Position numbers and translations under genes: made by a program. From positions 1-64,000 of the forward strand of contig DVLT01000008.1 in assembly GCA_018715345.1 (NCBI GenBank): 64,000 bases of DNA, written 5' to 3'. Under the pieces are notes generated by a model. That model was given only the letters and a program-made list of their open reading frames with translations. It was not told the DNA's origin and made no database searches. This DNA is from Candidatus Onthocola gallistercoris (GTDB lineage: Bacteria; Bacillota; Clostridia; Lachnospirales; Lachnospiraceae). Positions 46,853 to 62,332 of this stretch are shown piece after piece (the first letter of the stretch is position 1; every line of letters begins with the position of its first letter).

Positions 46853-48754
46853 ATGGACTACAAAAGGTCGGCAAAAGAAGTCATTGAGTACATTGGCGGA
46901 AAAGAGAATATCGTTTCTGCGGCCCACTGCGCCACAAGACTCCGCCTTGTCATCGCGGACAATGACAAGATGAACACAGAGGCCATTGAGAATGTGGACG
47001 GTGTGAAAGGCGTGTTTGAGGCAGCCGGGCAGATCCAGATCATCTTTGGGACCGGAACGGTCAACAAGGTGTATGATGAATTTATTGCCCAGGCAGGCAT
47101 TACAGCCGCATCGAAAGACGATGTGAAACAGGCGGCCAATGCCCAGCAGAACGTGTTTAAGAGAGGTATAAAGACACTGGGAGACATATTTGTCCCCATT
47201 ATCCCTGCGATCGTGGCCAGCGGTCTGCTCATGGGTGTTTTGGAAGGTCTGTGCAATGTGTGGCCGGAGATGGCCAATTCCGGCACTTATACGATCATCC
47301 ATATGTTCAGCAACGCGGCCTTTAACTTTCTGCCGATACTGATCGCCATTTCGGCGGCCAGAACCTTTGGCGGCAATCTGTTCCTTGGCGCTGTCATCGG
47401 TATGATCATGATCCACGGCGATCTGATCAATGCCTGGTCCGTATCCGGCATGAATCCGGCGGATATCCCCACAGCAAGCGTGTGGTTTGGTCTTTATGAT
47501 ATACAGTTGGTGGGTTATCAGGGACATGTCATCCCGGTTATCATTGCCGTATGGTTGATGTCTTTTATCGAGAAACGGCTGCACAAGATCGTGCCGGAGA
47601 TCATCGATCTGTTTGTGACGCCTTTGGTATCCGTACTTGTGACCGGATATCTGACATTGACCATTATCGGACCCATATTCTCCACAGTGGAAAACTGGGT
47701 ACTTTCCGGAGCGCAGGCTCTGATATCCATTCCCTTTGGCATCGGCGCGGCCGTTGCCGGCGCCCTGTATGCCCCCACGGTTGTGGCAGGACTCCATCAT
47801 ATGTACAATGCCCTTGAAGCAGGGCTCATCAGTCAGATCGGTGTCAATACATGGATGCCCATTGCCACAGCAGCCAACGTGGCCCAGGGTGCAGCCGCGC
47901 TGGCAGTTGCGCTCAAAACAAGAAACAACAAGACAAAAGCTATGGCTTTGCCGGCTTCCTTATCCGCATTTCTCGGCATCACCGAACCGGCCATTTTTGG
48001 TGTCAACATCCGTTTTATGACGCCTTTTGTAGCCGGCTGTATCGGCGGCGCCTGCGGCGCCCTCGTGGCAGGCATATTTGGCATCGGAGCCAGCGCCTAT
48101 GGCATCACCGGCCTGTTTGGTTTCCTGATCACGACCAATTATACATTCCAGTATGCTCTTGAGATGATCGTGGCTGCAGCTGTTGCTTTTGTGATCTCTT
48201 GGGCTTTGTTTAAAGGAGAGGACAAAAAGACGAAAAAAGCGTCGGGGACAACAAGTGTACAGGCAGCAGCCAGCCTGACTGCGCCTGCTGAAGGAAAGGA
48301 TGAAAAAAATACGGTATATGCACCGATGAAGGGTGAAGCGATCCCCATGACAGAAGTGAAAGATGAAACCTTTGCAGGGGAAGTACTGGGAAAAGGCTTT
48401 GCCATGATCCCGGAAGAAGGGAAGATCTATGCGCCTTTCAATGGTACGTTGGATATGATCTTTGATACAAAACATGCCTTGGGACTGACCAGTCAGGATG
48501 GTGTTGAACTGCTGATCCATGTGGGAATCAATACAGTGGAACTGAATGGCCAATATTATACAGCCCATGCACAGAATGGCGATACTATCCGCCAGGGACA
48601 GCTGCTCCTGGAATTTGATATTCCCAAGATCCAGGCGGCGGGATATGATGTGACCACGCCGGTGATCGTTACAAATACGCCGGATTACAGCGAAATACTC
48701 GTTGAAAAGACTGGAGCCTGCGATGCGGGAGAGAAAGTGATGACAGTAAAATGA
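46853..48754 (+). CDS. sucrose/beta-glucoside PTS transporter EIIBCA
   Basis: EIIB AAHCATRLRLVI, EIIC region, C-terminal EIIA LLIHVGINTVELNG. Confidence 0.93.
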   Translation: MDYKRSAKEVIEYIGGKENIVSAAHCATRLRLVIADNDKMNTEAIENVDGVKGVFEAAGQIQIIFGTGTVNKVYDEFIAQAGITAASKDDVKQAANAQQNVFKRGIKTLGDIFVPIIPAIVASGLLMGVLEGLCNVWPEMANSGTYTIIHMFSNAAFNFLPILIAISAARTFGGNLFLGAVIGMIMIHGDLINAWSVSGMNPADIPTASVWFGLYDIQLVGYQGHVIPVIIAVWLMSFIEKRLHKIVPEIIDLFVTPLVSVLVTGYLTLTIIGPIFSTVENWVLSGAQALISIPFGIGAAVAGALYAPTVVAGLHHMYNALEAGLISQIGVNTWMPIATAANVAQGAAALAVALKTRNNKTKAMALPASLSAFLGITEPAIFGVNIRFMTPFVAGCIGGACGALVAGIFGIGASAYGITGLFGFLITTNYTFQYALEMIVAAAVAFVISWALFKGEDKKTKKASGTTSVQAAASLTAPAEGKDEKNTVYAPMKGEAIPMTEVKDETFAGEVLGKGFAMIPEEGKIYAPFNGTLDMIFDTKHALGLTSQDGVELLIHVGINTVELNGQYYTAHAQNGDTIRQGQLLLEFDIPKIQAAGYDVTTPVIVTNTPDYSEILVEKTGACDAGEKVMTVK

Positions 48755-50202
48755 ATGAAAAAGGGAAAACATTGTTGGCGGAAACATTAAAACGGGAAAA
48801 GGAAGGCGCCCTTCTGGCGGCGTCTGACCCATACCGTTTAAAATTTCATCTGATGCCCAAGGCGGGATGGATGAACGACCCAAATGGTCTGTGCCAATTC
48901 AAGGGTGTATATCATGTGTTTTATCAGTATTCGCCTCTGGATGCCAAGGGCGGCATGAAGGCGTGGGGGCATCAGACGACCCGCGATTTTATCCATTGGG
49001 AACATGAGCCGGCTCCCCTTTTCCCGGACAGGGATTTTGACCGGAGCGGCGTCTATTCCGGTTCCGCTTTTATCCATGATGACCGGATGTATCTGTTTTA
49101 TACAGGCAATGTGAAACTGGACGGGGACTATGACTATATCAACAACGGACGGGAAGCCAATACCATCCTGGTGGAAAGTGGGGATGGCCATCGCTTTTCG
49201 GACAAAGAACTTCTTATGACCCGGAAGGACTATCCTGACGACTATACCTGCCATATAAGAGATCCAAAGGTATGGGAGGAGGACGGTCGTTTCTACATGA
49301 TCCAGGGCGGCAGAAAAACAGGCGATACAGGTGCAGCTCTGATCTTCGGCTCACAGGATCTGCGTCACTGGACATTCGAAAAGGAACTGAAAACCGATGG
49401 ATATTTTGGCTATATGTGGGAATGCCCGGACTATTTTGAACTGGATGGTGAAAAGGTCTTATCCTTTTCGCCCCAGGGATTGGGATCGGAAAGGTATCGT
49501 TTCCAAAACGTATACCAGTCCGGCCATGTGGTCCTGCAAAAATCACCGGTTGATTTTACAGAAGACGACCGGGTGGATGAAAGCACATTTGAAGAGTGGG
49601 ATCACGGTTTTGATTTCTATGCGCCTCAGACATTTCTGGATGAGAAAGGCCGGCGCATACTCATCGGCTGGGCAGGCGTTCCCGATGCGGACTATGACAA
49701 TGAGCCCACTGTGGAAAGAGGCTGGCAGCATGCCTTGACTTTGCCGCGGGTCCTGCATGTGAAAAACGGCAAGATGATCCAGATACCGGTGGAAGAATTG
49801 GAAGAACTCCGAGATGAGGCATTTAAGATAAATGCGGGAGAGAAAAAGAGACTGGATCGGGAGACATTCGAGATGGCGATCCGGCCGGAGACAGGGAAGG
49901 AATTTCAGACAGTTTTTGAGTGCGGCTGCGAAAAAATTGTGATAGAATATACCAAAGACTGCGTGTTCCGTCTGCAGATATCTGAAGAAGCCGGGCGGGG
50001 AAGGAAGCTGCGCGAGATACGCGTGGATGAGCTTCGCAGCTTGAGGATTTTTATGGATACTTCCCTGATCGAAATATATGTAAATGACGGTGAGAACGTC
50101 TTTACGTCCAGATTTTATTTTCCAAGACGGGACCGCACGGTATGTGTTGAAGGTGCCGATAGGATAAAAGGATGGTACCTGTCGGAAATGGAGGGAAATT
50201 AA
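48751..50202 (+). CDS. scrB: sucrose-6-phosphate hydrolase (GH32)
   Basis: HLMPKAGWMNDPNGLCQFKGVYHVFYQY, RDPKVW, ECPDYF. Confidence 0.95.
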   Translation: MNEKGKTLLAETLKREKEGALLAASDPYRLKFHLMPKAGWMNDPNGLCQFKGVYHVFYQYSPLDAKGGMKAWGHQTTRDFIHWEHEPAPLFPDRDFDRSGVYSGSAFIHDDRMYLFYTGNVKLDGDYDYINNGREANTILVESGDGHRFSDKELLMTRKDYPDDYTCHIRDPKVWEEDGRFYMIQGGRKTGDTGAALIFGSQDLRHWTFEKELKTDGYFGYMWECPDYFELDGEKVLSFSPQGLGSERYRFQNVYQSGHVVLQKSPVDFTEDDRVDESTFEEWDHGFDFYAPQTFLDEKGRRILIGWAGVPDADYDNEPTVERGWQHALTLPRVLHVKNGKMIQIPVEELEELRDEAFKINAGEKKRLDRETFEMAIRPETGKEFQTVFECGCEKIVIEYTKDCVFRLQISEEAGRGRKLREIRVDELRSLRIFMDTSLIEIYVNDGENVFTSRFYFPRRDRTVCVEGADRIKGWYLSEMEGN

Positions 50203-50204
50203 CA

Positions 50205-51170
50205 TTGAAAAAATTACTTGCTATAGGAGAAGCGTTGATCGACCTGATTCCGGAAGAGACAGGCAGAGCCCTAAAGGATGTGATCGGTTTTCGTCCGGCA
50301 GTGGGCGGCGCGCCGGCCAATGTGTGCGGTGCCTATTCCCGGCTTGGCGGGCCGTCGGAGATGATCACCCAGCTGGGGATGGATCCCTTTGGCGACAAGA
50401 TCATCGAAGAGTTTGACCGATATCATATCGGAAGGGATTATGTTTCAAGGACAGCGGAGGCCAACACATCTTTGGCTTTTGTAGCTTTAAAGGAGGACGG
50501 GAACCGGGAGTTTTCTTTTTACCGGAAACCGGGGGCAGATATGCTCATGAGTCCCGACCGGATCCGCCGGGAGTGGTTTGAAGATGCTTTTGCGCTGCAT
50601 TTCTGTTCCGTATCCATAGGAGATTTCTCCATGAAGGAAGCGCATAAACGGGCCATCTGCTATGCGGAGGAGACGGGAACATTGATCAGTTTCGATCCCA
50701 ATCTGCGCTTTGCCCTGTGGCCAAGTAATGAAGAACTGAAAACGGCTGTGGATGAATTTCTTCCCAAAGCGAATATACTGAAGATCTCAGACGAGGAACT
50801 GGAATTTCTCACCGGCAAGACCGAGATAGAAGATGCGCTGCCCCAGCTCATGCAAGGAAATGTGAGACTGGTCATCTATACAAAGGGGTCCAAGGGGGCG
50901 CAGGCGTTTACTGCTTCCACAAAGGCAAAAGCAGCCAGCAGGAAGGTTAAGGCCATCGATACGACAGGAGCGGGGGATGCCTTCATCGGATCCTTCCTGT
51001 TCCAGCTTTCAAAAGATGGGGTCAGCGCGGACACGCTTTCGGAACTGTCTGCGGATCAGCTGACCCGGTACCTGGATTTTTCCAACAGATACTGCGGCTT
51101 GAGCGTGCAGCGCAATGGCGCCATCATGTCCTATCCCACGTTGGATGAGATGATAGGAGAGATGTCATGA
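50205..51170 (+). CDS. PfkB-family fructokinase
   Basis: AIGEALIDLIPEE, DTTGAGDAFIGSFL; likely TTG start. Confidence 0.92.
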   Translation: MKKLLAIGEALIDLIPEETGRALKDVIGFRPAVGGAPANVCGAYSRLGGPSEMITQLGMDPFGDKIIEEFDRYHIGRDYVSRTAEANTSLAFVALKEDGNREFSFYRKPGADMLMSPDRIRREWFEDAFALHFCSVSIGDFSMKEAHKRAICYAEETGTLISFDPNLRFALWPSNEELKTAVDEFLPKANILKISDEELEFLTGKTEIEDALPQLMQGNVRLVIYTKGSKGAQAFTASTKAKAASRKVKAIDTTGAGDAFIGSFLFQLSKDGVSADTLSELSADQLTRYLDFSNRYCGLSVQRNGAIMSYPTLDEMIGEMS

Positions 51171-52189
51171 CGATCAATGAGATAGCCCGGTTGGCAGGTG
51201 TATCCAGAGCCACAGTATCCCGGTATCTGAACGATGGATATGTCAGTGAGGAGAAACGGCAGATTTTACAGAAAGTCATCAAAGACACAGGATATGAGCC
51301 GTCCAAGCAGGCGCAGAACCTGCGTAAAAAGACCACCGGACTGATCGGCGTGATCATCCCCAGGATCCAGTCCGAATCGGTCAGCCGGATGGTGGCCGGC
51401 ATAAGCAGCGTTCTTTCCAAAGAAGGCTATCAGCTGCTTTTGGCCAATACTCAGAATGATGAGAAGGAAGAACTGAAGTACCTCCGTATATTCCGAAACA
51501 ATCAGGTGGACGGTGTGATCTTTATAGGGACCATCTTTACCCGGGAACACTTCCGGCTGATGGAAGAACTGGAAGTGCCGTTGGTCGTATTGGGACAACA
51601 GATCCAGGCATGGCCCTGCGTCTATCAGGACGATTACCATGCGGCCTATGATCTGACTGCGCGCTTACTGAAACAGGCTTCCAAGATCGGCTATATCGGT
51701 GTCACCACCTTGGATAAGGCGGTGGGAGAAGGACGTAAACAAGGCTTTATGGATGCGGTGGCGGATATCAAACCCGAGTGCCAGGTGGAGATCCGGCAGG
51801 CGGCTTTCAGCGCCCTGGCCGGATATGATAAGGCCCGAGAACTGCTGACGAAGGAACCCAAGACGGATACCCTTTTTTGCGTGACCGATGAGATCGCGGC
51901 CGGCGCGCTGAAATATCTTCATGAAGCCGGATATCAGGTCCCGGAGCAGGTTCAGCTGGTCGGTTTTGGCGATACGGCCATGGGTAAAATGGTCACCCCC
52001 GAAATCTCCAGCGTGCACTTTTATTATAAAACCAGCGGAATGGAAGCGGCGAAGCTGCTTCTGGAGATCCTCCAGGAGGGCAGGGATATTAAAAAAGAGA
52101 TCAAGATGGGATACCGTTTATGTATCTGCGCTTCCCTCCGGGCTCCGACAGCCGACAACGGATCTAGGACTTGTAAAAGCGGAGCGTGA
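51167..52189 (+). CDS. LacI family transcriptional regulator (ScrR-like)
   Basis: TINEIARLAGVSRATVSRYLNDGYVSEEKR HTH; last gene of the sucrose operon. Confidence 0.93.
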   Translation: MTINEIARLAGVSRATVSRYLNDGYVSEEKRQILQKVIKDTGYEPSKQAQNLRKKTTGLIGVIIPRIQSESVSRMVAGISSVLSKEGYQLLLANTQNDEKEELKYLRIFRNNQVDGVIFIGTIFTREHFRLMEELEVPLVVLGQQIQAWPCVYQDDYHAAYDLTARLLKQASKIGYIGVTTLDKAVGEGRKQGFMDAVADIKPECQVEIRQAAFSALAGYDKARELLTKEPKTDTLFCVTDEIAAGALKYLHEAGYQVPEQVQLVGFGDTAMGKMVTPEISSVHFYYKTSGMEAAKLLLEILQEGRDIKKEIKMGYRLCICASLRAPTADNGSRTCKSGA

Positions 52190-53054
52190 ATGCGATAAAT
52201 TCCTGTAAAGCCGGGGGAAGGCTGTGGGATTTCATATAACTGATATAAAACTGGCGTTTGATGGCGCTTTCGATGGGATAGACGATCAACTGTCCCCGGC
52301 TTTCCAGATCAGCGATGGAAAAACGGGACAGGATGGATACGCCCATACCGGCGGTGATCATCTGCTTGATGGATTCCAGATCATTGATCTGCGCGACCAC
52401 ATTTAACTGCTGTCGATGGATATTTAGTTCATCCAAATATCTGTCGGCAGCTTTTTTTGTGCCGGATCCCTGTTCCCGGATGATGACCGGCTCCATTAAT
52501 AGACGATAAATATCCGGAGACTGTTTTTTGAGTTTTAGGTAGTGGTCGGTGGCCGGTGTGGCCAGCACAAGCTGATCTGTGCAAAAAGGCAGACTGACAC
52601 ACTTGCTTGAAGGATGGGCCTCGCCGATCAATCCCAGCTGGATGGTCCCATCCAGGATTTTTTCTTCGATTTCCCGGCTATCTCCCTGTTGGATGCGGAA
52701 ATAGGCAGAAGGATAGGCTTTGTGAAACCGGTTCAGTATATGGGGCAGCAGATAACCGGATGGTATGGTGGACGCGCCGATGTGAAGGACCGTCTCACCG
52801 GTGTTGTTTAAAGCATGGATGGCAGCTGCTTTTGTCTCCAGGATACGTCTGGCATATTGTAAAAAGGTTTGACCTTCCAGCGTCAGATGGATGGATTTGG
52901 TCGTTCTTTGTATCAACTTTTTTCCCAGTTCGTTTTCCAGATTTTTAATATGGGAACTGACCGTGGACTGGGATATAAACAAATGATCCGCCGCTTTTGA
53001 GAAACTTTTCAAGTCAGCCACAGCTGCAAATGCTTCCAGCTGCCTAAATTCCAT
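52164..53054 (-). CDS. LysR family transcriptional regulator (selenium-metabolism-associated type)
   Basis: MEFRQLEAFAAVADLKSFSKAADHLFISQSTVSSHIKNLE; gene context. Confidence 0.85.
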   Translation of the reverse strand: MEFRQLEAFAAVADLKSFSKAADHLFISQSTVSSHIKNLENELGKKLIQRTTKSIHLTLEGQTFLQYARRILETKAAAIHALNNTGETVLHIGASTIPSGYLLPHILNRFHKAYPSAYFRIQQGDSREIEEKILDGTIQLGLIGEAHPSSKCVSLPFCTDQLVLATPATDHYLKLKKQSPDIYRLLMEPVIIREQGSGTKKAADRYLDELNIHRQQLNVVAQINDLESIKQMITAGMGVSILSRFSIADLESRGQLIVYPIESAIKRQFYISYMKSHSLPPALQEFIAFTLRFYKS

Positions 53055-54213
53055 GGCAGATCACCTCCAGAGCCCGGATGGCTGTTTCAACTTCCGTCCG
53101 GGTATTTTTATGTCCAAAAGAAAAACGGATCGTGCCAGTGGGATAGGTCCCGAGGGTTTTGTGGGCTGAAGGGGCGCAGTGGAGCCCTACTCGCGTCTGG
53201 ATGTGATAGTCTTGGTCCAGAAGGAAAGCAGCCTGTGCCGGATCTGCCCCTTCGATCTGGATAGAAACCACCGGGGCCCGGCCGCAGGATGTGGGCAGAC
53301 CGATGACCTTTATCCGGGGAATCTGGCGGACGCCGTCTAAAAATATCTGTGTCAGTTCCAGTTCGTGACGGCGGATCCGATCCATTCCGGTCTGCTCAAG
53401 CCAGACGAGGGCGGCATGGAGACCGTATATGCCTGGGAGGTTCAAGGTTCCCGCCTCAAAACGATCCGGCATAAAGTCCGGTGTTGTCTCCGTATGGGAT
53501 AAACTGCCTGTGCCGCCGGTGATCAGCGGTTCCAGAAGTGGGATCATCGGTTCTTTCATGAGAAAGCCGCCGGTCCCCTGAGGACCTAGAAGGCTTTTAT
53601 GTCCGGTAAAGGCGAGGATATCAATATGCATCCGCTCCATATCGATGGGGAACAGTCCGGCAGTCTGGGCGCTGTCCACAATATAGATGAGGCCGTGCTC
53701 CCGGCAGAACTGTCCGATGGTTTCGATGGGCAGAAGTGTTCCGCACACATTGGATGCATGGGTGGTGATGACAGCGCGGGTGTTGGGCTTTAAAAAGCCG
53801 GTAAGCCGGATTGGATCCAGACAGCCGTTTTTGTCACAGGGGATCCGGTCAAAGGTGATCCCCTGCCCGGTCAGCTGGTTTAAGGGACGCATAACGGCAT
53901 TATGTTCCATGGAGGAGACGAGCACATGGTCGCCGGGTTTTAAAAGCCCTTTTAGGATCATATTCAGGCTTTCGGTAATATTGACTGTAAAAACAGTATT
54001 TTTACAGTCATCGCCGTGGAAAAGCCGTGTCAGCGCCTCCCGGGTGTCATAGACCACATCCTCCGCCAGGTAAGCAGAGGAATAGCTGCCCCGGTTCACG
54101 TTGCATCCCACATGTTTCATATAATCCACCATCGCATCAATGACTTGCGGCGGCTTTGGAAAAGAAGTGGCAGATTGATCAAAATAGATTTTTGTTTCTT
54201 TGGATATATCCAT
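53044..54213 (-). CDS. cysteine desulfurase family protein (class V aminotransferase, EF2568-like)
   Basis: YFDQSATSFPKPPQVIDAM, DSAQTAG, FTGHKSLLGPQGTGGF, RVGLHCAPSAHKTLGTYPTGTIRFS. Confidence 0.85.
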   Translation of the reverse strand: MDISKETKIYFDQSATSFPKPPQVIDAMVDYMKHVGCNVNRGSYSSAYLAEDVVYDTREALTRLFHGDDCKNTVFTVNITESLNMILKGLLKPGDHVLVSSMEHNAVMRPLNQLTGQGITFDRIPCDKNGCLDPIRLTGFLKPNTRAVITTHASNVCGTLLPIETIGQFCREHGLIYIVDSAQTAGLFPIDMERMHIDILAFTGHKSLLGPQGTGGFLMKEPMIPLLEPLITGGTGSLSHTETTPDFMPDRFEAGTLNLPGIYGLHAALVWLEQTGMDRIRRHELELTQIFLDGVRQIPRIKVIGLPTSCGRAPVVSIQIEGADPAQAAFLLDQDYHIQTRVGLHCAPSAHKTLGTYPTGTIRFSFGHKNTRTEVETAIRALEVICHGI

Positions 54214-54257
54214 GACGTACCTCGCTTCACATGTATTTATTAATAGTATTATATATG

Positions 54258-54280
54258 ATTTATTGAGATATTCAATAAAT
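54258..54280. promoter_or_regulatory. candidate LysR operator in divergent intergenic region
   Basis: ATTTATTGA-GATAT-TCAATAAAT, 9-bp perfect arms. Confidence 0.5.
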
Positions 54281-54357
54281 AATGACGAATATGCAAATAA
54301 ATGAATCAGCAGGACGGACAGAATGTGGTACAATGGTCACAGATTGGAGGAAAAGTT

Positions 54358-55422
54358 ATGAAGAATGAAAAACTGAAGATCGGTATTGCCGGCCTGTTGA
54401 TCGGTCTGATCGCCGCCGCATTGGTCTATTTTGGCAATCCGGTGAACATGGGATTTTGTATCGCCTGCTTCATCCGGGATACGGTGGGCGCGTTGGGACT
54501 GCATCGGGCAGAAAATGTCCAGTATATCCGGCCGGAGATCATCGGACTTGTGCTGGGAGCCTTTTTGATGTCTCTGGCAAGAAAGGAATTTGCGCCAAAG
54601 GGCGGATCGTCTGCCATGACCCGGTTTATACTGGGATTTTTTGTCATGATCGGCTGTCTTGTCTTTTTAGGCTGCCCATTCCGGATGATCCTTCGGATAG
54701 CCGGCGGAGACATGAATGCCATTGTGGGGCTGGTCGGCTTTGTGGCTGGCATCGGTGTGGGCATCCTCTTTTTAAATCGGGGCTATTCTCTGAAACGCAG
54801 TTATAAACAGAGTAAGGCAGAAGGTATCGTATTCCCAGCCATTCAGGTGGCCATGCTGGCCCTTCTGATCGCGGCGCCCGCCTTTATTTTTTTCACCGCG
54901 GCAGATGGCGGACCGGGAGGACTCCATGCGGCTGTATGGATTTCACTGGCAGCCGGACTGGCTGTGGGAGCCATGGCCCAGGTGACCCGTCTTTGTATGG
55001 TGGGCGGCATCCGGGATTTCATCCTGTTTAGGGAAACAAAACTGTTGATCGGTTTTGCAGCCATCCTTGTGGCCGCTCTGGCAGCCAATCTGGCCATGGG
55101 TAATTTTGATCCGGGCTTTGTCGGACAGCCGGTGGCCCATTCTGACGGACTGTGGAATTTCCTTGGAATGCTTTTAGTGGGATATGGGTGTACATTGCTT
55201 GGCGGCTGTCCCCTCCGCCAGCTCATTTTGGCTGGAGAGGGTAACGTGGATTCGGCAGCAGCCTTTATCGGACTGGCTGCAGGCGCTGCCTTTGCCCATA
55301 ACTTTGGTCTGGCTTCTTCCACCAGCGGCGCGACAGCCGGCGGCAAAGCGGCGGTCATCATCGGAATCGTTGTGGTGACAGTGATCGCCTTGGCCCATAC
55401 ATTCAGAAAAAGTGAAGCATAG
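54358..55422 (+). CDS. YedE-like membrane protein (putative selenium transporter)
   Basis: FGNPVNMGFCIACFIRDTVGALGLH, repeated GCPxR motifs, about 10 TM segments. Confidence 0.85.
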   Translation: MKNEKLKIGIAGLLIGLIAAALVYFGNPVNMGFCIACFIRDTVGALGLHRAENVQYIRPEIIGLVLGAFLMSLARKEFAPKGGSSAMTRFILGFFVMIGCLVFLGCPFRMILRIAGGDMNAIVGLVGFVAGIGVGILFLNRGYSLKRSYKQSKAEGIVFPAIQVAMLALLIAAPAFIFFTAADGGPGGLHAAVWISLAAGLAVGAMAQVTRLCMVGGIRDFILFRETKLLIGFAAILVAALAANLAMGNFDPGFVGQPVAHSDGLWNFLGMLLVGYGCTLLGGCPLRQLILAGEGNVDSAAAFIGLAAGAAFAHNFGLASSTSGATAGGKAAVIIGIVVVTVIALAHTFRKSEA

Positions 55423-55436
55423 AGGAGGTATAGAAG

Positions 55437-55640
55437 ATGATCGATGCAAGGGGAAGATCCTGCCCGGAACCGGTGATCATGATCAAAAAAGCCATGGAGA
55501 CAAAAGCGGCTTCCTATGAAATGCTTGTGGATAGCCGGGTTTCTGTGGAGAACGTGACCCGTTTTGCCACCCACTATGGCTACCAGGTACAGGTGGAACA
55601 AAACGGGGAAGAATTTCGGATGATGATCACGAAAAAATGA
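55437..55640 (+). CDS. TusA/SirA-like sulfurtransferase (YedF N-terminal domain only)
   Basis: MIDARGRSCPEPVIMIKKAM CPxP motif. Confidence 0.85.
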   Translation: MIDARGRSCPEPVIMIKKAMETKAASYEMLVDSRVSVENVTRFATHYGYQVQVEQNGEEFRMMITKK

Positions 55641-55888
55641 CGGATCATACATATATTGCCACTTTTTATTCCCATTTTGGCGCTATACGGTTTCAGAAGG
55701 CGTTGAAAAAGGCGGGATTGACCGGCGAGATGATGCCGGTGCCCAGAGATCTCAGTTCATCCTGCGGAACCTGCGTCCGTTTTGAAGCCGATGCGTTTCA
55801 GGCGAGGGATGGGTACCATGAGATCGAACAGATCGTCCGGGTGGGAAATAAAGGTTACGAATGTATTTACCGGGCCGAGGACAGTTAG
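55637..55888 (+). CDS. DUF3343 putative Se/S carrier-like protein
   Basis: YIATFYSHFGAIRFQKALKKAGL, SSSCGTCVRFE; ATGA overlap with previous gene. Confidence 0.75.
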   Translation: MTDHTYIATFYSHFGAIRFQKALKKAGLTGEMMPVPRDLSSSCGTCVRFEADAFQARDGYHEIEQIVRVGNKGYECIYRAEDS

Positions 55889-57909: not shown

Positions 57910-57978
57910 AAATGCCTGGGGGTGAAAGAAAGAAGGCCGTGATAAAATACAGTCAGTAAGGAAAAAAGGAAGATGACC

Positions 57979-58674
57979 ATGGGAAAAATACTGTATTTTA
58001 ATCGTCAGGGAGAACGGACCTTGTCCTGCAAGGATACGGTGTATTTCGTAAATAGCAGCAGACTTGGCGTCTATTCCCTGGCAGACGGCTTAAACTCGCT
58101 GAAATGGTCCCATATCGGGGCGTCGGCGGTACAAAAGGCCGTGGCAGATATGGCGGCGGAAAAGGGGGATGAACTTTTCACAGAGTCGGAGCAGGATGTG
58201 CAAAGGAATCTCATTGAAATCGTCCACCGGACATTATATAATTTAGCTGAGAAACAAGGCAGTCCGGATGACTATGCATCAACGATGATGACCGTGTTCG
58301 TTTCGAAGAAAAGCGGATGTATGAGGTGGCTTCATATCGGAGACGGACTGATATTGAAAGAAGATGTGTCAGGCAACCTGTCTGTCCTGTCCCATCCCCA
58401 TAATGGGGTGACCAGACAGTTTACCTACACCACAGCCCATGATCAGCTGGATCGGTATATGCGTATGGGGACCAAGCCTTTAAAAGGCGTAAGACGGCTG
58501 ATCATGATGACCGATGGCGCCGCCTTTCCATTTTATCGAAACCGGAAACTGACCGGATGGGGAAAATGGCTGATCGGTAGGGGCATAGAGTCTGTTCTGG
58601 CGGAACTGGAAAAGATCGGCCCGGCAGACGACTACAGTATGATCGATGTATTTGTCAATGACCGGGAGGGATGA
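57979..58674 (+). CDS. PP2C family protein phosphatase
   Basis: SLADGLNS, HIGDGLIL, MMTDGA, DDYSMIDV PP2C motifs. Confidence 0.82.
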   Translation: MGKILYFNRQGERTLSCKDTVYFVNSSRLGVYSLADGLNSLKWSHIGASAVQKAVADMAAEKGDELFTESEQDVQRNLIEIVHRTLYNLAEKQGSPDDYASTMMTVFVSKKSGCMRWLHIGDGLILKEDVSGNLSVLSHPHNGVTRQFTYTTAHDQLDRYMRMGTKPLKGVRRLIMMTDGAAFPFYRNRKLTGWGKWLIGRGIESVLAELEKIGPADDYSMIDVFVNDREG

Positions 58675-58677
58675 TTT

Positions 58678-60030
58678 ATGAAATATGGGGAAGGACAACT
58701 TCGGGCAGATGCCTATACACTGAAGGCCCAGGTAAAACTACGCTGTGTGGAGGAAAATCAAAAAATGCAGAAGGCCATCCGGGACGGGGATCAGAAAGTG
58801 TTTCTGGATATCCTGAAACATGCGGTGGATTACCGGCTGACATGGGGCGATCATATCCGGCGATTCATTTATGACAGCATTGCCCCGGGACACACTTCTT
58901 TGGAAGATTTGAGCGATGAAACGGTCATGGATTTTATACGAAAAGCATTTCGGGATAATGGCATGGCCAACCGAGGCAGTATGAATCCAAAGACGACCAC
59001 AAAGCTGGGGGCCCGATTAAAGGAGTGGATGGCCAGTCCGGCGGTGAAGATTTCAAGGCAGACCTGTTTTTTGTTTTGTTTTGGACTGAATATGGATGAA
59101 GAGCAGGCATCCTATATGCTGACCTATGTATTGCGACAGGCGGATTTTAATGTGCGAGATCCCAAAGAGGCGATCTACTACTACTGTCTGAAGTACAATC
59201 TCCAGTATACAGGCGTTGTTTCCTGGCTGGAATGGTATGATACGGTGGAGCCTGGAGAAGATGACAGGAAAGCAGAAGCTTACTCCGGGACACTGATCCT
59301 AAAAAGGGACCTGTATTCTCTTGAAAAAGATATGGACGACAAACCGTTTAAAGATTATCTGAGGCGTTTGAAATCCAACGCAGGAGACGAGAAAAAGAAC
59401 AGCAGGACACGGGCGGCGGTTTTAAAAGGGCTGTTGAATGAATTGAGTTATTCCATATCCGGAGAAAGATGTGAAGCTTTAAGCCAAAACAGTCAGGCGC
59501 GGGAGGTTGTCTATACAAGGGAGATACGGAACATACGGGATTATACTCGGAAACAACAGATGCTGCGGCGGCTGAACCGGGCAAAAGAGGCAGTGGATTA
59601 TCAATGGCTGGAACAGGAATTGCTCGCCACGCCAGACGGTACGGTGGAGATTCCTGAAATACTGGGAGAAATGATACGGGAAAAGATCATCGAGATCCCC
59701 ACATTTTCTGAAAAATCCCTGGAGAAAAAAATATCAGACCGGGAGACGGAGATCACCCGGGAAGATATTTTGATGGCAGTTTTTTTGTACTGTACTTGCG
59801 GAATGGGCGATGCGGAAGTGGACGGTGGTGAGTCCTATCCGGAGCGGAAAGCCGAATTTGTTTATGAAGCCAACAGGAATCTGGATAAATGCGGTTTCAG
59901 CGAGATCTATCTGCCCAATCCTTTTGAATTGTTTTTGGTATCCTGCCTGCTTCAAAAACGACCGTTGAATTACTTTTTGACGGTCTGGAAAGCCTGCAGG
60001 AGAAAGACAGGGGATGGCCATGGAAAGTAG
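58678..60030 (+). CDS. protein of unknown function in PP2C/kinase cassette
   Basis: intact 450 aa ORF 3 nt after the PP2C gene, overlapping the kinase start; no recognised domain. Confidence 0.75.
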   Translation: MKYGEGQLRADAYTLKAQVKLRCVEENQKMQKAIRDGDQKVFLDILKHAVDYRLTWGDHIRRFIYDSIAPGHTSLEDLSDETVMDFIRKAFRDNGMANRGSMNPKTTTKLGARLKEWMASPAVKISRQTCFLFCFGLNMDEEQASYMLTYVLRQADFNVRDPKEAIYYYCLKYNLQYTGVVSWLEWYDTVEPGEDDRKAEAYSGTLILKRDLYSLEKDMDDKPFKDYLRRLKSNAGDEKKNSRTRAAVLKGLLNELSYSISGERCEALSQNSQAREVVYTREIRNIRDYTRKQQMLRRLNRAKEAVDYQWLEQELLATPDGTVEIPEILGEMIREKIIEIPTFSEKSLEKKISDRETEITREDILMAVFLYCTCGMGDAEVDGGESYPERKAEFVYEANRNLDKCGFSEIYLPNPFELFLVSCLLQKRPLNYFLTVWKACRRKTGDGHGK

Positions 60031-62332
60031 AATCGTGGATCGAAGAAAAAGTATCCTTTCTCTGGGGATCGAAAGGGTACATATCGCTGGTTCGGACTAT
60101 GTCCTCCAGGGGGAACCGAAACGGGGTGGAAGCTGTCTGGTCTATACGGCCATAAAAACGGAACAGGTGGGAGATACAGTATACGAACATCGGGTGTTGC
60201 TGAAGGAATTTTATCCCCTGTTGGGTATGGGACAGACAGCCGGTATTCTTCGGGATCAGGATGGTTCCTTACAAGTGCCGGAGACAACGCGATGTTCGGA
60301 AGATTATAAGCGGAACCTGAAACGGTTCCAGGCATCCTATGGGATGATGCTGGAGTTGGGGCGAACAGAGACGGGAGCGGAACATACGACGGTCGCCGTG
60401 TCCATGATGGAAGATAATGGGACCTGGTATATGGAAGAGGCTTATGACACCGGCGAAAGTCTGGACGTTTTTGTAGGTAAGTGGCAGCTGGATCTGAAAG
60501 ATTTTCTCAATGTTTTTTACCGATGTCTGGAGGCGGTGGGCCGGCTTCACAGATTGGGATATTATCATCTGGATCTGAAACCTCAAAACATTTCCTGTAC
60601 AAGAAACATTGTCATCAAGCTGATCGACACCGATTCTTTTGTACAGATATCCCGGCTTTCAGAATATAAGGTGTTGTCCTGGACGAGGGGGTATTCTGCC
60701 CCGGAACTGGAAAGCGCGATCCGTTCACCGGAAGACATGCCCTATCTGATCGGCCCTTGGACGGATGTCTTTTCATTGGCCCAGATCCTTTGCTGGTATC
60801 TGTTTGGACATCCTCTGGAGGAAGAGGAAAAAGAAGCGGCGTTGGATCAACTGGAAAAAGCCGTGGAGAAACGACTTATACGTATAGAGTCCCTCCCGGA
60901 TGGCGATATGTCAGAAAGGACATTTTCCATGAAGGGAGTATATATGCTGAGGCAGATCCTGTCAGATGCCTTAAATCCTAGGTGGAAGCAGAGGCCATCA
61001 TCTGTGTCGGCTTTGAAAGATGCTCTTGTGGACGCCTATAATGAGCTGTTTGCGCCGGAGGCCGGAGCCGTATTGGTGGATAATTTCCATATACCGGACG
61101 TGATCGGATATGTTTTTGAAAAGCGGATCGGGCAACTGGAAACATTGTTTGAATATGGTGATTATGCCGGTGTGGCTATCCTATCCGATGATCAGGGAAA
61201 AAGGAAGGCATTGGCTTACACCTATGGCGCTGTCCGAAGGATGGATTATCAGTGTATCATGGAACTTCATTGTAAAAGTTTCACAGATATACCTGGACAG
61301 TTTTTTGAACATAAAAGAAATACTTATGAGTTTGTATATCCAGTGGATTCTTTGGAGGGAAGAGGCATATATATATGGTATGCAAACCGGGATCGGCTGA
61401 AGAGTTGGCTGACAGACTGTGATCTTCCTGTCCTGCTTATCATATTTGACGAAAGGGAAGAGGATGTGCTGGATAAGGAGGAGGCAGTCATTATGAAGGA
61501 ACTGTTGGAGCTGCCTGCCTGTGACTGGCTGATCGTGGGACAGTATAACAGGTGCCGTTCCAGAAATAAGCTTCAATATGATATACGGACATTGGATCTG
61601 GATCGGGAAAATGAGCAGCCTATGGCGCCAAAAACTTATGAAAAGCGTGTACAAAGAAGGCGGATCGCACTGGCGGCGCATCTGGCTGTGGCGTGCATCC
61701 TAGCCTGGATGGGGAGATGGCTGGCTTTGCTTGGCGCTTCGCAAGCCGTGCCGGCTTATAAAGTGTTTGAAACAGAAGAATTTGTGTACTTTGCTTTACG
61801 ACAGGATTTTGCGCCAGAGTCGCTGATCTACGTTGCGGGAGCTGTCCTGGTTTATATCGGCATACTCTGCGGTCTGTACGGAATGTACCGATATTATAGA
61901 CCCTATGGCTGGAAGATGTTTTTACAAAAATATGCGTTTGCCATCGGCGCTTTGTTTGCTTTTCTATTGACTTTAGCCGTACCGGAGGCGTACGCGGATG
62001 AAGCCCTATCCTGGGTGATGGATCGATATGGGATAGCCTGGTATCAGACATATCTTGTGGAGAGAATGGCTTTGGGATTGTTGTACTGTATGGGCGCGGC
62101 GTTTTTGATACTGTGGCTTTGGCATATCTGTTTTGGAGAGAGATCCCGTTCACGGTGGCTTCAGGCCGCAGCGGCCCTGACATGGATGTTCTCGGCGGGA
62201 TTTGCGGTTTTACAAACATGGGTCAATCGAGGCGAGATGGTGTTCCTGATCATCTGTCTGGCGGTGGACTTGGCGGCAACCCTTTGCTTTTTACGGCAAA
62301 AAAAGCCCTGTAAGGAGCAGATGGAAGAATAA
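60014..62332 (+). CDS. Ser/Thr protein kinase with STAND-like middle region and C-terminal TM segments
   Basis: GGSCLVYTA G-loop, VLLKEFYP, GYYHLDLKPQNI catalytic loop, IDTDSF (DFG position), SAPELE (APE). Confidence 0.85.
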   Translation: MAMESRIVDRRKSILSLGIERVHIAGSDYVLQGEPKRGGSCLVYTAIKTEQVGDTVYEHRVLLKEFYPLLGMGQTAGILRDQDGSLQVPETTRCSEDYKRNLKRFQASYGMMLELGRTETGAEHTTVAVSMMEDNGTWYMEEAYDTGESLDVFVGKWQLDLKDFLNVFYRCLEAVGRLHRLGYYHLDLKPQNISCTRNIVIKLIDTDSFVQISRLSEYKVLSWTRGYSAPELESAIRSPEDMPYLIGPWTDVFSLAQILCWYLFGHPLEEEEKEAALDQLEKAVEKRLIRIESLPDGDMSERTFSMKGVYMLRQILSDALNPRWKQRPSSVSALKDALVDAYNELFAPEAGAVLVDNFHIPDVIGYVFEKRIGQLETLFEYGDYAGVAILSDDQGKRKALAYTYGAVRRMDYQCIMELHCKSFTDIPGQFFEHKRNTYEFVYPVDSLEGRGIYIWYANRDRLKSWLTDCDLPVLLIIFDEREEDVLDKEEAVIMKELLELPACDWLIVGQYNRCRSRNKLQYDIRTLDLDRENEQPMAPKTYEKRVQRRRIALAAHLAVACILAWMGRWLALLGASQAVPAYKVFETEEFVYFALRQDFAPESLIYVAGAVLVYIGILCGLYGMYRYYRPYGWKMFLQKYAFAIGALFAFLLTLAVPEAYADEALSWVMDRYGIAWYQTYLVERMALGLLYCMGAAFLILWLWHICFGERSRSRWLQAAAALTWMFSAGFAVLQTWVNRGEMVFLIICLAVDLAATLCFLRQKKPCKEQMEE

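Follow-up and report, generated by a model that had tools for sequence, protein, structure and literature searches.

Why should a protein of 450 amino acids (aa) that resembles no named family be encoded between a protein phosphatase and a protein kinase? The question is raised by a locus of Candidatus Onthocola gallistercoris, in a window that is the whole stretch of 64,000 nucleotides (nt) analysed here and forms the initial 64 kb of a 91 kb contig (DVLT01000008.1) in a draft genome of 2.39 Mb. Three genes on the + strand encode, in order, a PP2C-type Ser/Thr phosphatase, the middle protein, for which we use the working name MID, and a membrane Ser/Thr kinase. The open reading frame calls agree exactly with an earlier note on this DNA, which had reported a gap of 3 nt between the PP2C and MID genes and an overlap of 17 nt between the MID and kinase genes; an alternative in-frame start of the kinase at 60020 would leave an overlap of 11 nt. 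The features of the cassette are as follows.

57973..58674, + strand: PP2C-type Ser/Thr phosphatase of 233 aa, which shortens to 231 aa if translation starts at the ATG at 57979 (Pfam PP2C_2, 1.8e-23)
58678..60030, + strand: MID, 450 aa, predicted all-helical, member of an unnamed kinase-linked family
60014..62332, + strand: membrane Ser/Thr kinase, whole gene, 772 aa (Pfam Pkinase, 2.8e-16)
60113..61045, + strand: kinase domain, about residues 34-344 (motif alignment and Pfam; matches to loci L023 and L032)
61046..61660, + strand: degenerate STAND NTPase-like domain, about residues 345-549 (alignment reaching the STAND domains at L023 and L032)
61682..62293, + strand: six candidate transmembrane helices, residues 557-760 (hydropathy scan)

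Linkage of MID to kinases across genomes

MID relatives were collected through MID similarity alone, and proximity to a kinase was not a criterion. A single-sequence search found relatives with 22-33% identity in 12 further genomes belonging to the organism's taxonomic family, and a 13-member profile detected MID in 56 of 396 sampled genomes of this family and in 5 of 387 other genomes sampled from the class, with one weak match among the 198 of a phylum sample. Named genome contigs were scanned with a closer, 11-member alignment, which returned 190 relatives, 80 of which were taken; they come mainly from Blautia, and also from Scybalocola, Ruminococcus, Oscillospiraceae, and Christensenella. 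MID was found in 56 of 64 Blautia species, usually as a single copy; the more complete genomes taken alone give 31 of 34. MID is thus a real family that is near-core in Blautia, and its distribution is patchy outside this genus. The single same-genus genome lacks MID, and its flanking genes are not conserved there, so that no insertion boundary can be drawn. A second, weakly related MID subfamily likewise adjoins kinases (L094, L097-L101, and L103).

A Ser/Thr kinase is encoded at most four genes from MID in 104 of 123 loci, and in 73 of the 79 that are not cut by contig ends. By our own estimate, made from five Pkinase matches in the 2.39 Mb genome of the window, chance would place a kinase in about 2% of nine-gene stretches; this genome-wide count was used because a within-locus background is biased by the MID-linked kinases themselves. 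PP2Cs are near 63 of the 123 MIDs. Of the 75 MIDs that come from named contigs, 51 have both a kinase and a PP2C in their vicinity. Since the Blautia loci share synteny by descent, more weight falls on a genus-dispersed set, in which a kinase lies within four genes at 44 of 50 loci, the window included. Among MIDs from other Clostridia families, four of five adjoin a kinase.

The association of MID with kinases is far from chance, and the kinase-MID pairing is its constant element, with gene order and kinase type varying around it. The arrangements seen include kinase-PP2C-MID, PP2C-kinase-FHA/ABC-MID, PP2C-MID-kinase, MID-kinase-STAND, and divergent pairs. The earlier note had suggested checking whether the three genes co-occur in a conserved order. 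MID relatives do stand beside kinases and PP2Cs in many genomes, but their order is not fixed, and STAND-type kinases often have no PP2C beside them. That note had also named in advance two findings that would count against it, a characterised family for the middle protein and a lack of co-occurrence in other genomes; both were looked for, and neither was found.

Components of the cassette and its module types

The phosphatase and the kinase are of familiar kinds, and the conserved third partner is not. When the window PP2C is aligned with PP2Cs adjoining other MIDs, the Asp motifs of the metal-binding core are kept (CKD, ADG, GDG, TDG, and DDYS), and it is most closely related to the PP2Cs encoded at MID loci L032 and L023. 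The PP2C_2 match and the Asp motifs together identify it as a predicted PP2C phosphatase. The kinase domain carries the loop RGGSCLVY, the lysine of LLKEFYP, HLDLKPQN, DTD in place of DFG, SAPE, and TDVFS. The catalytic Lys, the HxD, the D of DFG, and the APE expected of the Pkinase fold are all present, and the catalytic motifs of the kinase and of the PP2C are intact. The assignment of the two proteins in the earlier note, a PP2C and a kinase of the HLDLKPQN type, is borne out by the Pfam matches listed above and by the motif itself.

The window kinase is matched best by the STAND-fused kinases encoded at L023 (2.7e-37) and L032 (6.5e-35), and the alignments remain colinear beyond the kinase domain into the STAND domains, as far as residue 467 for L023 and residue 422 for L032. 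The domains that follow the kinase in L023 and L032 are NB-ARC/AAA_16/nSTAND by Pfam. The Walker A motif, or P-loop, of these relatives, GIGGIGKS/T, reads SDDQGKRK in the window kinase, and a Pfam search of this protein for an intact P-loop nucleoside triphosphatase (NTPase) gave no NTPase match. The part beyond residue 345, used as a separate query, detected no homologues among 1572 neighbourhood proteins. The multi-membrane-span C-terminus described in the earlier note is consistent with the six hydrophobic candidate segments at residues 557-760, but a degenerate STAND NTPase-like domain, which that note had missed, precedes them. We read the C-terminal part as a STAND domain that has probably decayed and been re-anchored in the membrane.

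MID itself gave nothing above the curated cut-offs in Pfam and no family match in NCBIfam, PADLOC, or PDB, and Foldseek found no significant structural match for the whole protein against PDB and viral models or for the N-terminal domain against PDB. That it falls outside any characterised family has held through both sequence and structure searches. Family alignments (A1-A5) delimit a conserved N-terminal domain at about residues 36-196 and a conserved C-terminal domain at about residues 320-446, with a variable middle part. The AlphaFold2 model is all-helical, with a mean predicted local distance difference test (pLDDT) score of 74.9 over the whole protein; the N-terminal domain of the B. 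wexlerae homologue reaches a mean pLDDT of 92.4. An internal duplication relating the N- and C-terminal domains was tested and rejected. Long MIDs with an insertion between these two domains occur at L093:7565-9508 and L095:87-2213, where there are weak Pfam matches to Baseplate_J and gp6 domain II. No paper on the MID family was found in the open-access literature, which does not prove novelty.

The MID loci fall into several module types. The Blautia type has the order kinase-PP2C-MID with a membrane kinase; 27 loci have rpoC upstream, and 19 have rpsL/rpsG downstream. Because apparent terminator hairpins follow rpoC and a promoter-like block precedes the kinase gene, both read by eye, the Blautia module seems to form a separate transcription unit. 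When a shared operator was sought upstream of it, conservation was limited to this promoter-like block, and a clear palindrome was absent. In the second type, an FHA/ABC transporter is encoded between the kinase and MID (PP2C-kinase-FHA/ABC transporter-MID). In the third type, MID accompanies kinases that carry fused STAND domains of the NB-ARC, NACHT, or AAA type, often with TPRs, and some of these loci are divergently transcribed. At one locus, L032:8741-15287, a long MID of 740 aa is separated from the STAND kinase by a sigma-70 family gene with regions 1.2-4, which hints at an action of some modules on transcription.

It is worth mentioning that the window and L023 combine module types. 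The window MID is closest to the MIDs of the Blautia/FHA group, whereas the window kinase has strong matches only among STAND-type kinases, those encoded at L023 and L032. An exchange of partners inside a linked pair would fit a modular system whose parts are functionally coupled.

Role of MID and alternative explanations

We consider it somewhat probable, at roughly 55%, that the cassette is a module for reversible Ser/Thr phosphorylation, with MID as its dedicated substrate or output. The membrane-bound kinase would take in a signal via its C-terminal part, and PP2C would undo the phosphorylation that the kinase makes. MID would be the dedicated cytosolic partner carrying the output; the most likely way is that phosphorylation of MID alters its contacts with other proteins. 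Gene linkage suggests that the three proteins belong to one signalling pathway, and the presence of MID beside such kinases in many gut Clostridia suggests that this pathway is widespread; the activity of the kinase, the part of MID as substrate and output, and its action by protein contacts are what we infer. The helical MID family stays paired with kinases while the sensory or regulatory part of the kinase changes. We also lean towards a broader reading, in which the MIDs of Clostridia form a dedicated output component of Ser/Thr kinase signalling that has not been described before and can be plugged into several kinase types (membrane, FHA-transporter, STAND-TPR, and degenerate STAND-membrane).

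Several observations weigh against a substrate or output role within such a module. STAND-type loci mostly lack an adjacent PP2C, and no phosphosite is marked in MID. At some loci that are not cut by contig ends (L077, L091, L139, L151, and L163), MID lacks a nearby kinase and its neighbours are unrelated. In favour of the module, distances between MIDs and between their kinases are strongly correlated (r = 0.96, 92 pairs, 0 of 2000 permutations); part of this value comes from the common history of the species, which was not removed. The MIDs that lack a kinase would also be expected if MID were an unrelated cytosolic protein that lies near kinases by accident. We give hardly any weight to such a coincidence, as a kinase is present at 73 of 79 uncut loci against the 2% or so expected, and gene order and orientation change across many genera.

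MID might instead be a docking adaptor or an allosteric activator that works stoichiometrically with the kinase. It would then bring in other substrates, or link the kinase to its sensory part, without being a substrate itself. MID does track the kinase over PP2C (104 against 63 of 123 loci), it occurs with kinases of two very dissimilar subfamilies and with the STAND-TPR, FHA-ABC, and membrane types, and its predicted all-helical architecture would suit an adaptor. However, if MID were an adaptor, fusions to a kinase should occur at least occasionally, and there are no MID-kinase fusions in the locus listings examined; MID is also divergent from the kinase at L028, L030, and L074. We regard this role as possible but doubtful. 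An improbable alternative is that MID is a phosphorylation-controlled DNA-binding regulator with an XRE-like helix-turn-helix, acting on its own module or on other genes. The pattern WL.G..P.RE..F.ICFAL of the STAND-type MIDs resembles XRE helices 3-5, and in hhalign the corresponding position aligned to an XRE profile with P = 0.012, compared with 0.22-0.49 for four other profiles. Divergent transcription at some loci points the same way, as do cyanase and Stl, which occur among the insignificant PDB structure matches and contain XRE-like domains. Yet hhalign assigns a probability of only 3.5%, no helix-turn-helix family turns up when alignments A1 and A3 are scanned with Pfam, and the best PDB structure match of the N-terminal domain is no better than E = 2.5. 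This domain is also acidic, with a median isoelectric point of 5.1, which makes nucleic-acid binding by MID less likely.

The earlier note had raised a role in phage defence, and a defence or cell-suicide module can be imagined in which infection triggers an NLR-like STAND kinase with MID as regulator or effector. Many MID-linked kinases are indeed fused to NB-ARC/NACHT-like STAND domains and TPRs, an architecture of the kinase-STAND-TPR type that is common in bacterial conflict systems (PMC8195603, PMC7159879), and the patchy distribution outside Blautia would agree with this. We nevertheless think it very unlikely. The PADLOC matches are weak and generic, covering the kinase domain only (best 1.5e-9, mad6). 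Comparison with the known anti-phage kinase systems in PADLOC gave neither a full-protein match nor the partner genes, and the MATE and DUF1275 neighbours of the cassette are not defence partners. MID is near-core in Blautia, unlike defence islands, and the P-loop is lost in the window kinase. There was no match to a plasmid record at the threshold used, and in the phage collection a single record matched, a faecal sequence of 4 kb that carries no annotation.

Known systems and surrounding genes

The encoding of a PP2C together with a membrane Ser/Thr kinase is shared with the PrpC-PrkC (Stp1-Stk1) pair of Firmicutes. However, Pfam finds no PASTA domain in the window kinase, which scores 16.3 bits on the Stk1 model NF033483 against a cut-off of 450, and the window PP2C scores 24.1 bits on the Stp1/IreP model NF033484 against a cut-off of 230. 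The window also has MID as a third gene and other neighbours: a Pfam scan of the window places a MATE transporter upstream of the cassette and a DUF1275 protein downstream, and the rsgA/rpe context is absent. The earlier note was right to set the locus apart from the usual prpC-prkC pair on these grounds. A promoter scan gave a promoter-like site before the DUF1275 gene and none immediately before PP2C, although such matches are no more frequent than in shuffled sequence.

Some MID modules resemble the FHA-ABC transporters of the Rv1747 type, which are controlled by Ser/Thr kinases, in holding an FHA-ABC transporter between kinase and MID. The window has none, and we know of no counterpart of MID in the Rv1747-type system. 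In the TerY-P triad of Ter systems, a vWA protein, a PP2C, and a kinase form a three-gene cassette of kinase, phosphatase, and partner, as in the window, where the partner MID is all-helical in the model and has no vWA match. The vWA-PP2C-kinase theme is described in PMC7159879. Fusions of STAND NTPases to kinases share the succession of a kinase and a STAND stretch, and the relatives of the window kinase are intact examples; the STAND part in the window, in contrast, lacks the P-loop and runs into membrane helices, and a conserved MID partner is present. The closest literature concerns STAND-centred conflict systems in general (PMC8195603, PMC7159879).

One unnamed family accompanies kinases of several types in many genera, and in Blautia, which is common in the human gut, it is near-core. 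Most bacterial Ser/Thr kinases have no known dedicated target, and MID turns the question of kinase targets into a concrete one, that of substrate or adaptor. If the broader reading of MIDs as a shared output component is true, NLR-like STAND kinases and housekeeping-like membrane kinases would share one signalling framework.

The same genome holds a second kinase cluster at L037:4857-10082 (G000:C48), in which kinases of 932 aa and 511 aa flank a gene for a 278 aa protein and which has no MID. Elsewhere in the window, a selenium-metabolism cluster of known kind (52164-55888) comprises a LysR regulator (NF040786), a cysteine desulfurase/selenocysteine lyase-like enzyme, the putative selenium transporter YedE, and an 83 aa protein. 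Genes for sucrose utilisation lie at 48751-52189 and encode a sucrose-6-phosphate hydrolase and a fructokinase-like sugar kinase, followed by a regulator that is LacI-like by sequence.

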